NCBI RefSeq assembly: GCF_900010725.2
Contig: NZ_LR734875.1
Coordinates: 54,955-97,028, forward strand
Length of the DNA: 42,074 nucleotides
Direction: 5' to 3'
Source: Planktothrix serta PCC 8927
Lineage (GTDB): Bacteria > Cyanobacteriota > Cyanobacteriia > Cyanobacteriales > Microcoleaceae
Every line of letters begins with the position of its first letter. The stretch's first letter is position 1. The notes below the pieces were generated by a model. That model did no database searches. It was not told the origin of the DNA and worked only from the letters and a program-made list of their open reading frames with translations. This document shows, one piece after another, positions 20,247-42,074 of this stretch. The translations under genes and the position numbers were made by a program.

Positions 20247-20346
20247 GTTTTGGGGGTAAATATAGCAGGGAATAGGGAATAGGGCTGTTTGATTTTCTCT
20301 CAAAAACTTGTGTAATTATAGATGCTACTGATGCTTCTCCTAACCC

Positions 20347-20380
20347 CCTGTAGAGACGTTGCATGCAACGTCTCTACAGG
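20347..20380. repeat. Perfect 34-base palindrome
   Basis: CCTGTAGAGACGTTGCA followed by its exact reverse complement, with no loop. A degenerate half (GCAACCTCTCTACA) is also seen near 31036. The word GTAGAGACGTTGCA is a recurrent dispersed repeat in cyanobacteria. It lies in the gap between convergent genes and may end both transcripts. Confidence 0.9.
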
Positions 20381-20397
20381 TGCATAAGTAGCAAACA

Positions 20398-20450
20398 TTA
20401 GTCGAAGTTGGAAGCCCACACTTACTCGTAGAGAAGTGTGGGTAGTTCAC
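20398..20450. mobile_element. Probable relic of an IS200/IS605-type right end
   Basis: GTCGAAGTTGGAAGCCCACA is followed by a hairpin, CCCACACTT (20415-20423) with AAGTGTGGG (20434-20442), and then TAGTTCAC. This GGAAGCCCAC...GTGGGTAGTTCAC layout is what I recall from the 3' end of TnpB-type insertion sequences in cyanobacteria (the right-end hairpin and omega RNA scaffold). No tnpA or tnpB reading frame is present nearby, so it would be a solo end. Confidence 0.5.
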
Positions 20451-20656
20451 CCAAAGACTTCATCTTCAATTCCTAACCACCATTCTCCCAAATTAATTAA
20501 CTCTTGATGCAGTTCGGCTAACTCTTGGATATATTCTTCCTGGGAGATTTCTGCTCGACGTTCTTGGAGTTTTTTTAACCTCAATTGCATTAATAACCAA
20601 GGTTTAGAAATACCATTTGTACTTTCAATATATCGGGCTAGTTCTTGACTATTCAT
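20447..20656 (-). CDS. Small conserved-looking hypothetical protein
   Basis: A 69-residue, highly charged helical protein (RLKKLQERRAEISQEEYIQE, then LAELHQELINLGEWWLG). No domain recognised. The composition, regular codon usage and position 10 genes' worth of similar spacing after a terminator favour a real gene. Its 5' side is 33 bases below the sodB terminator, so it has its own promoter. Its 3' end overlaps the tail of the IS605-like relic, so the final residues (EDEVFG) may be shaped by that sequence. Confidence 0.65.
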   Translation of the reverse strand: MNSQELARYIESTNGISKPWLLMQLRLKKLQERRAEISQEEYIQELAELHQELINLGEWWLGIEDEVFG

Positions 20657-21374: not shown

Positions 21375-21913
21375 TGTGTTCTATCCTCTCTCAATAGGTA
21401 TAGGAATTAGGAAACGTTGAGCCAGATTTTGATTCTCTGTAGAGTTTAGGGTTACTGGGGGTAACTCTAAACAAATCTTTACGTCGATTTGATTTTAGCT
21501 CAAAAATTACACAATTTTGCCGTTTTGCGCTTAATTATCTGAAAGAATCAGGATTATCTATCCTTAGACGGAGCAGGGCTGTTTCATTTTCCATTGCCAA
21601 CCCTAAGACCTAAACCCCCAACCCGCTTCCCATCTCTCCCTGCCCTCTCCTACAAGGAGAGAGGAAAGGCGATCGCTTTTAAGAGGGGCGGGTTTATAAA
21701 AGCTCTTGGTGAGAATTGAAGATAATTACAGAACCCGCCCCTACATTTTGTGGTTGAAAAAATCCGCTCGCCTTTGAGCAATAATCAACAATTAAACCGT
21801 AGGGGCGGGTTCCGAGACAATCTTTAATGATCAGTAATTATCTGACTAAACCCGCCCTCTATTCTCAGGCTGTTGGGGAAGAATATAATCAACGGCCAAC
21901 AGCCAACAAAGAA
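21375..21913. other. 539-base gap: sodB promoter region plus palindromic repeats
   Basis: No ORF of note. The first 150 bases form the sodB leader. From about 21590 a C-rich stretch (CCCTAAGACC, CTCTCC...GGAGAG hairpin at 21645-21665) is followed by HIP1 and the two GGGGCGGGTT repeats listed separately. Nothing else is recognised. Confidence 0.6.
21692..21862. repeat. Two more GGGGCGGGTT...AACCCGCCC palindromic repeats
   Basis: Units at about 21693-21754 and 21800-21862 open with GGGGCGGGTT and close with AACCCGCCC, each about 60 bases. The first shares the layout of the middle unit at 15599-15661 (TTTA near the start, ACAGAACCCGCCCCTAC at the end); the second has its own core. They lie downstream of the chemoreceptor gene. 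Confidence 0.8.
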
Positions 21914-38074: not shown

Positions 38075-39172
38075 ATGTCACAATCTTATCCCCCTGATCC
38101 CCCCAATGGTCGGTCGAATCCCCGCTTAGATGAGATCATTGCCATTATTGTTGCCTTAGCAACGATGGGTACAATTTTGTTTTGGACTTTAAGCCACCCC
38201 AACCGTAAATTAACCCTTACCCCCGATCAAACTCCCCCACAAACTCAAACTTCTTCCGAAAATCAAACCTTATCCAAAATCCTAGAAGATTCCCTTCCAG
38301 ACGGGGTTTCGGCTCCATCGGGAACGACTTCCCAACCCCCAACAACTGCCACTACACCTGCACCAACAGTCAATCAACCTTGGTGGATTGCTTTAGGGTT
38401 AGTTCCCCAAACTGCACCGGATACGTCCATTGCTACGTCCCCCCAGCCCCAAGTTACCCCAGTTCCCCCCGAAACAACGAACATCAACCCAACGGAAACG
38501 GCTTGTCCGACTCAACCTAATGGGGGAAATATTTGTTCAACGACTCCACCTCCTGTAACAACAAAATCCACACCTCAAACAGCCAAATCTTCTTTGATTC
38601 CAGAAGGATATTGGGCGAGTCCGTTTGTGGTCTATTTTATTAATAAAAATTGGGCAACAGGGTCTGATCAAAAACCGTTAAAACCCGATGAAAAAATTAC
38701 ACGCGGAGAATTTGCCGCTCAATTAGAAAAGGCGTTTAATAAACAACCCGAACAACCCCCGATAAAATTTAAGGATGTTCCGCAAAACTTCTGGGCTAAA
38801 CCCGCTTTAAAAGAAGTAACTCAATCGGGTTTTTTAGTAGGATATCCAGGAGATATCTTCCGACCTAAACAAGAAATTCCCCGTGTTCAAGTGTTAGTCG
38901 CTTTAGCAAGTGGGTTAGAGTTAAAACCCCCTACAAATCCTCAACAAACCCTGAAAATATTCACAGATGCTAATCAAATTCCTCCCTGGGCTATTGAGGG
39001 TGTTGCCGCCGCCACAGAAGCGGGATTAGTCGTTAATTATCCTGATAAAAATACCCTCAATCCCAATCAAACTGCAACCTATGGTGAAGTGTCATCTATG
39101 ATTTACCAAGGGTTAGTTTATCGGGGAAAAGCACAACCCATTGCTTCTGATTACATTGTGAATTCACCCTGA
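38075..39172 (+). CDS. SLH-domain envelope protein with one membrane helix
   Basis: A 365-residue protein. Residues 21-40 (IIAIIVALATMGTILFWTLS) form a membrane helix, so it is anchored in the inner membrane. A long Pro/Thr/Gln-rich linker (about 45-165) follows, then three S-layer homology repeats to the C-terminus (FKDVPQNFWAKPALKEVTQS, GFLVGYPGDIFRPK, then FTDANQIPPWAIEGVAAATE). SLH domains bind peptidoglycan-linked polymers, so it probably spans the periplasm to the wall. GGAG precedes the ATG. Function otherwise unknown. Confidence 0.88.
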   Translation: MSQSYPPDPPNGRSNPRLDEIIAIIVALATMGTILFWTLSHPNRKLTLTPDQTPPQTQTSSENQTLSKILEDSLPDGVSAPSGTTSQPPTTATTPAPTVNQPWWIALGLVPQTAPDTSIATSPQPQVTPVPPETTNINPTETACPTQPNGGNICSTTPPPVTTKSTPQTAKSSLIPEGYWASPFVVYFINKNWATGSDQKPLKPDEKITRGEFAAQLEKAFNKQPEQPPIKFKDVPQNFWAKPALKEVTQSGFLVGYPGDIFRPKQEIPRVQVLVALASGLELKPPTNPQQTLKIFTDANQIPPWAIEGVAAATEAGLVVNYPDKNTLNPNQTATYGEVSSMIYQGLVYRGKAQPIASDYIVNSP

Positions 39173-39183
39173 CTATTGACAGC

Positions 39184-39384
39184 TACGGGCGGGGATACCC
39201 AAAGTCCGTCAACTTAATGCCAAAAGCCTTGAAATAAATTTCAGGCTAAAAGCTTAAACCCGTTAAAACGGGTTAAGAAAGACAAGTCTTGAGTCATCTT
39301 TAGATGACTTTAGCTCTTAGCCCGAACTTTAGTTCAGGGCTAACATGGGTTAAGTTGACGGACTTTGGGGGATACCCCGCCCCT
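39184..39384. mobile_element. MITE-like element, copy 2, made of nested palindromes
   Basis: About 200 bases with no ORF. Left end GGGCGGGGATACCC followed by AAAGTCCGTCAACTTAA; right end TTAAGTTGACGGACTTT then GGGGGATACCCCGCCC: about 30 bases of near-perfect terminal inverted repeat, related to the element at 8153-8385. Inside are further perfect hairpins in series: AACCCGTT/AACGGGTT, AGTCATCT/AGATGACT, and TAGCCC...GGGCTA. It fills the gap between the SLH and nucleotidyltransferase genes. Confidence 0.8.
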
Positions 39385-41509: not shown

Positions 41510-41829
41510 TTTGAACCTCTGACTAGAAACTGCAACTTGCTTTAGTATTTTAGCAATGACTCGATCTCTGAGTCCTCCTGTAACAGATTGTTAAGAGTAA
41601 GTTCAGTAATTTTACGGAAAAATTTAAGGTTTACCCAAAAAATAATTCATCCCAGAGGTCAACAACCGCGAAAAAAGATGAAGTTACTCTAAAAGATTCC
41701 TGATCGAAATCTACCCTTTACCAAATCTTTACATGAATAATTTTAAAGTTTTACAAAAAAATCTAGTAATGTTTGGGGGTTTTAGTGTAAAATTTAAGGA
41801 TTCAAAACCCTATCCTTCCACTTGACATA
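41510..41829. other. Gap before the structured RNA, nothing recognised
   Basis: AT-rich sequence that holds the promoter of the minus-strand aldolase gene at one side and, presumably, a promoter for the plus-strand structured RNA at the other. No ORF over 50 codons on sight and no repeat family member. If the RNA beyond belongs to an IscB-type element, the last 15 to 20 bases here would serve as its guide. Confidence 0.3.
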
Positions 41830-42074
41830 ACTACCGAGTAGTAACCCTTCATTCCTCATATTAGCTACATTGATGGGTAAGCGACGAATTAGATCGAAGT
41901 CTCTCCGTCAAAGAAACGGGTGGCCGAGCCGAGAGAATCGAAGGGAAATAAAAGAGAACTGCTCGATAGAAGTCAACAACCCACCACTGGCTTGAGTACA
42001 AGTACAGTGGGGGCTTGAAATACAGCCCTAGTTGACCCGCCTAAGTCTTAACTGACTCCGTTATTTGGGTCACG
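41830..42074 (+). ncRNA. Highly structured RNA, HEARO/omega-RNA-like (cut by window end)
   Basis: From 41830 the sequence becomes GC-richer and full of complementary blocks: ACTAC/GTAGT (41830-41842); CCCTTC-ATTC (41845-41854) with GAAT-C-GAAGGG (41935-41945); CTCTC/GAGAG (41901-41935) around CCGT/ACGG; CGAGC (41925-41929) with GCTCG (41961-41965), perhaps a pseudoknot; AGTCAAC/GTTGAC (41971-42036) enclosing CACTG/CAGTG, CTTG/CAAG and GGGCT/AGCCC; AGTC/GACT (42044-42057); GACCC/GGGTC (42034-42071). Compact, multi-stem and without ORF, it resembles a long structured RNA ahead of a gene. My best guess is a HEARO RNA (omega RNA of an IscB endonuclease), common in Arthrospira-type cyanobacteria; the protein gene would lie beyond the window. 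Confidence 0.55.

Follow-up and report, generated by a model that had tools for sequence, protein, structure and literature searches.

Two features abut at 41971/41972 and together make up the right end of the window (the whole stretch of 42,074 nucleotides analysed here, C55:54955-97028 of a draft genome): a stretch specific to one genus (Planktothrix) that precedes a glycosyltransferase gene, here called part A, and a HEARO element that has landed directly behind it. We hold this reading with high confidence, and it corrects the borders of a feature that a preliminary description had taken for a single RNA. The features are listed below, with the evidence for each in brackets.

41716-41793, plus strand: promoter-like conserved region (column conservation, 8 congeneric sequences)
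41820-41971, plus strand: part A, a structured, genus-restricted stretch that is not HEARO (match to model R1; no Rfam match)
41835-41842, plus strand: 5' arm of the part A outer stem, pairing with 41958-41965 (MFE; 90.5% of cells paired)
41845-41857, plus strand: 5' arm of the part A main stem, pairing within 41931-41945 and including a ten-pair stem (MFE)
41931-41945, plus strand: 3' arm of the main stem (MFE)
41956-41971, plus strand: putative 16-nt HEARO guide, immediately adjoining the element on its 5' side (precedes HEARO model position 1; boundary from the empty site)
41958-41965, plus strand: 3' arm of the outer stem, overlapping the putative guide (MFE)
41972-42074, plus strand: HEARO (omega) RNA, 5' half, forming the left end of a mobile element (cmscan)
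42074, no strand: final base, with a presumed scaffold join (single N, C55:97029) behind it

Fold and distribution of part A

The strong fold previously reported for 41830-42074 was reproduced (-77.4 kcal/mol, z -3.6, equalled by 0 of 200 dinucleotide shuffles), and 41830-41971 folded by itself gives z -3.4. Folding energy by itself is weak evidence, since z -3.4 or lower is also reached by 4 of 120 controls, segments of the same length (142 nt) cut from the window. Three segments with strong inverted repeats elsewhere in the window (21651-21900, 20251-20460, and 39151-39380) are among the five best-folding of the 120 control segments. The ten-pair stem of the preliminary description is present in the MFE structure exactly as given, joining 41845-41850 to 41940-41945 and 41851-41854 to 41935-41938, nested in a larger stem with closing pairs at 41835-41842/41958-41965; part A as a whole takes the shape of one long stem with interruptions. 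The stated lack of ORFs is borne out in that those crossing the region have at most 46 aa. Both halves of the proposed pseudoknot, CGAGC at 41925 and GCTCG at 41961, are there; because GCTCG pairs with 41835-41839 in the MFE structure, forming the pseudoknot would come at the expense of the outer stem.

A DNA query of 41700-41975 found a match in 8 of the 10 genomes of the genus, the window's own included. Six of those eight match over part A itself; the match in G007 reaches 41842 and that in G008 covers 41717-41765 only. Outside the genus there is a match in one genome, again in about this upstream part. Part A has one match per genome. Model R1, built from six sequences, matches 7 of 61 genomes of the family under stricter filters, all of them of this genus (one of 11 genera); it finds G008 (E 1.7e-5) and misses G007. 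A pattern scan of GTDB contigs for part A returned five stretches: G004, G005, and G006 account for three, and the other two, in a euryarchaeal MAG and in Haliotispira, were taken as chance. At Rfam gathering scores the whole window gave zero matches, and 41830-41971 matched no Rfam family up to E = 5, a covariance match to HEARO likewise being absent.

RNAalifold on part A beats 297 of 300 column shuffles, and in the six sequences 86.8% of cells are paired, versus 31-41% in slid controls. Over these six sequences the outer stem, taken one pair shorter, has 90.5% of cells paired, and the main stem has 82.1%, with double changes in three pairs. Double changes occur in four part A pairs altogether (9 of 500 shuffles as high), while further pair types show no excess, 223 of 500 shuffles being as good; both covariation counts come from six related sequences only, with the structure derived from the same alignment. 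Between the insertion point and the gene a consensus fold found no support (45 of 300 shuffles as good).

Part A as a candidate leader of a glycosyltransferase gene

The gene that follows the locus, at L017:5300-6526, encodes a glycosyltransferase with a WecG/TagA/CpsF domain and, at its C-terminal end, a domain match to an MshE-related c-di-GMP-binding domain. A close homologue (E 1e-167 or better) is present in the same eight genomes as the DNA match; G001 and G009 have distant paralogues only and no DNA match. The distance from part A to the ATG of the gene is 259-271 nt in the five congeners measured, and G002 and G003 align alike. This arrangement points, tentatively and at nearly balanced confidence, to part A acting in cis as a leader of the glycosyltransferase gene. 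It would then resemble bacterial exopolysaccharide-gene leader RNAs as a general class in being structured, upstream, and co-occurring with one gene; unlike them, part A has no Rfam match, c-di-GMP riboswitches included, and occurs in one genus only.

The conserved region upstream of the structure (41716-41793) contains the promoter-like boxes TTTACC (41717) and TTTACA (41728 and 41750) and an extended -10-like box, TGTAAAAT (41786-41793), and may on this pattern have promoter activity. The TTTACA-type repeats at 41716-41759, upstream of the leader, are conserved in eight congeneric sequences and partly in another genus (L030); we take them to resemble a response-regulator binding site.

A free-standing small RNA, with no role as a leader of the glycosyltransferase gene, would account for the compact stem with its closing helix and for part A having a conserved promoter-like region of its own. 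In none of the eight sequences, however, is there a run of at least five T within 70 nt counted from the outer stem's 3' arm, the longest being TTTT in G005, and the locus was seen only in genomes that carry the gene downstream; we regard this explanation as somewhat less likely than a leader. We also doubt that the conserved stretch is mainly promoter or operator DNA whose fold is incidental, a reading to which we would give about one part in four of our belief. Conservation by column is at its highest in, among others, the TTTACA repeats and the -10-like box, which extend to G007, G008, and partly another genus, and the control segments that fold equally well (see above) speak for it too; yet in six sequences conservation and pairing extend about 130 nt beyond the promoter region, and half of the pairing is lost in slid-partner controls. 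The preferred reading remains a leader acting in cis.

An incomplete HEARO copy at 41972-42074

In E-value mode, run on the last 575 bases of the window, the Rfam covariance search that had been suggested for this region returned HEARO as the sole family: cmscan places RF02033 at 41972-42074 with 39 bits and E 1.5e-6, covering model positions 1-92 of 211. The HEARO label therefore stands for the last 103 bases and falls for 41830-41971. The piece scores below the gathering score (39 vs 83 bits), the match ending at the window end. It is called an incomplete HEARO copy on account of a full-length relative rather than its own score: over 103 nt it is 98% identical to C24:234419-234521, which lies inside a full-length HEARO (142.4 bits, C24:234421). 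Identity to the copies at C24, C63, C58, and C5 is 96-98% over about 100 nt. The genome has 41 HEARO matches, 31 of them above the cut-off; across the genus 9 of 10 genomes have matches, 1 to 41 each, 8 of 10 with one above the cut-off, and none was found in 14 control genomes.

Position 42074 is followed by a single N at C55:97029, then by other sequence, and then by a second single N at C55:101649; we read both as scaffold joins. Single Ns in fact lie at both window edges, C55:54954 adjoining a minus-strand IscB fragment and C55:97029 a HEARO copy. The 4.6 kb between the two downstream Ns (L017:530-5150) contain comEC and other genes and are probably a mis-scaffolded contig: in G003 comEC shares a contig with the glycosyltransferase gene and lies beyond it, whereas in the other six congeners the two are on separate contigs. 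As a regulated gene comEC was ruled out, since part A continues to the glycosyltransferase gene in the seven other congeners with the locus.

The stretch after the second N matches 11 other places in the genome, with a HEARO copy seen upstream at five of them. It carries, 4.7 kb further along the scaffold, the right end of the element, a subterminal hairpin (DNA fold z -4.4) followed by GGAGGAAGAAAA and directly by ATGA; what comes after GGAGGAAGAAAA is ATGACAATGATGC, with which the leader continues in relatives. The element is thus flanked by ...GATAGAA on the left and ATGACAATG on the right, the right half of the site reading GGAAGAAAA up to the junction and ATGACAATGAT beyond it. The empty site in G006 reads GGGAA and then, past the same point, ATGACAATGA, and the comparison with G006 reveals no target duplication at the junction. 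All seven other congeners with the locus are free of the insert. Among them only G003 and G006 have ATGA there; the junction bases are missing in G002 and are other letters in G004, G005, G007, and G008.

Judged from these alignments, the insertion point lies between the leader and the gene and immediately precedes ATGA. HEARO elements are defined by insertion directly before ATGA or GTGA, and the window copy sits in such a position if the two site halves are taken as one site. Of the 12 right ends of this genome 10 were inspected, and all 10 have ATGA next; at C24:288824 a pattern scan found ATGA with a 12-aa ORF. A follow-up check at C1:194 and C24:288824 yielded nothing.

The HEARO copy could also be a relic that was truncated in the genome and not split by the assembly, which seems to us improbable. 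At C5:55481-55579 another copy likewise breaks off behind this 5' part although the adjoining sequence inspected is free of Ns, and a HEARO match read across the N join reaches just 33.8 bits. Against this, the window copy breaks exactly at the single N, the matching right end adjoins the remaining half of that empty site, and further HEARO copies finish at Ns or contig ends (C6, C5:1, C63). The single 245-nt HEARO RNA of the preliminary description, spanning 41830-42074 with its guide before 41830, has a continuous predicted fold (z -3.6) in its favour and is counted as refuted by the homology boundary at 41971/41972, since the HEARO model starts at 41972, 41830-41971 is found in congeners lacking the right part, and at the 20 further genomic sites that match the right part, whole or in pieces, no match extends left of query base 269 (41968). 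We return to two abutting units, part A and an element probably split by the assembly.

Putative guide, nuclease, and transposase

In IscB systems the sequence flanking the HEARO scaffold on its 5' side serves as the guide. It had been placed ahead of 41830; with the left end of the element at 41972 it moves to 41956-41971, the 16 nt that would serve as guide and that overlap the 3' arm of the part A outer stem. Compared with this putative guide the empty allele is identical at 14 of 16 bases in G003 and at 12 of 16 in G006, with ATGA next in both. The omega RNA and the target-adjacent motifs of IscB are dealt with in PMC9755519 and PMC9581776.

An IscB gene, expected earlier on the plus strand downstream, did not appear in the 11 kb from C55:96500 (L017): none is assembled at the window copy, where an N follows 42074. 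The related complete element, C58:53224 to about 53696, is about 470 bp and so too short for an IscB gene. The window element would likewise be without one here, and it is probably non-autonomous. Elsewhere the genome has nine matches to PF14239 (IscB-type domain), with surrounding ORFs that show an HNH-like motif by eye and of which several run into Ns or contig starts, and nine matches to Y1 transposases, five of them above 90 bits and without internal stops.

The element agrees with HEARO RNA RF02033 (IscB omega RNA) in the model match from position 1, in its place before ATGA, in its many genomic copies, and in the IscB pieces of the genome; it differs in being assembled for model positions 1-92 only and in the shortness of its complete relative. 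Like non-autonomous elements of the IS200/IS605 type it shows no target duplication, a subterminal right-end hairpin, and a fixed tetranucleotide at one end in a genome with Y1 transposases.

Transcription running from part A into the element could yield, after processing, an omega RNA that carries the end of part A as its guide. That guide would match the empty allele next to ATGA. Alleles without the insert could then be cleaved by an IscB provided in trans, which would favour retention of the element.

HEARO right ends at start codons

The most interesting observation lies beyond the window: HEARO right ends of this genus often stand directly before a start codon. From six genomes 60 HEARO loci (L138-L197) were taken, with G005, G006, and some matches of the window's genome (G000) outside this sample; nine without a right end were dropped, and merging orthologous sites reduced the remaining 51 to 47. 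At 28 of these 47 independent right ends an ORF of at least 60 aa opens, versus 17 of 89 control sites (binomial p 1e-9), the control being the intergenic ATGA/GTGA insertion points of one 42-kb window. The right-end motif list was composed after viewing the data and required ATGA or GTGA, so that the count is no test of the motif. Two right ends, L172 and L182, were placed by hand; without them the count is 26 of 45 (p 1e-8). As background, ATGA or GTGA opens an ORF in 378 of 2049 cases in the same loci and in 96 of 554 in the window. The excess stems from the five congeners (22 of 29 right ends), not from the window's own genome, which alone has 6 of 18 (p 0.11 vs the control).

Two other patterns were counted. 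The first, which contained the Shine-Dalgarno sequence and counted orthologous sites repeatedly, gave 26 sites, 25 with ATGA next, 21 of the 25 before ORFs of at least 60 aa. A pattern for the IscB 3' end, which includes no ribosome site and no ATGA, was matched at 12 sites, spread over three genera of the family; ATGA lies 54-70 nt downstream in all 12, and in 10 of 12 it opens an ORF of at least 237 aa, two of the ten being orthologous. Ten products were scanned, and nine have a Pfam family; L162 is without one. Products at HEARO right ends include DnaN, EF-P, trigger factor, peptide deformylase, and a FabH-type synthase, so that housekeeping genes are among those affected; the Pfam alignment starts at residue 1 for the N-terminal domains of DnaN and trigger factor and at residue 3 for EF-P.

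One type of right end (L097-L122) has a Shine-Dalgarno-like GGAGG or GGGGG some 7 nt ahead of the flanking ATG, reading GGGGGAAGAAAG or GGAGGAAGAAAG before ATGA; an nhmmer model of it matches 6 of the 60 loci. The other types show no Shine-Dalgarno sequence by eye, so a built-in ribosome site holds for one right-end type only.

We lean slightly towards the view that the HEARO/IscB elements of this genus are start-codon-docking, sitting between the 5' UTR of a gene and its coding sequence. The guide of an element so docked would read the native 5' UTR, and a right end of the Shine-Dalgarno type would bring its own ribosome site. Start-codon insertions may persist because the element itself restores the signals required for translation and the empty allele can be cut, and the pattern would fit survival of such insertions better than targeting. 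The window copy itself is no start-codon case: it has a right end of the Shine-Dalgarno type, but the ATGA within the leader opens only 15 codons. In the portions of the literature covered by our search, which lay outside the original HEARO/IscB reports, we did not find the start-codon pattern of HEARO elements described.

Implications

The locus provides a natural pair of filled and empty alleles for an IscB omega RNA, and the division at 41971/41972 exposes a genus-specific candidate leader without an Rfam family before a glycosyltransferase gene with a c-di-GMP domain. If IscB elements prefer start codons, or survive there, their guides would be 5' UTRs by construction; such a preference, if true, would fit the ATGA/GTGA rule, and it would open a possible route for IscB nucleases to become regulators of host genes.
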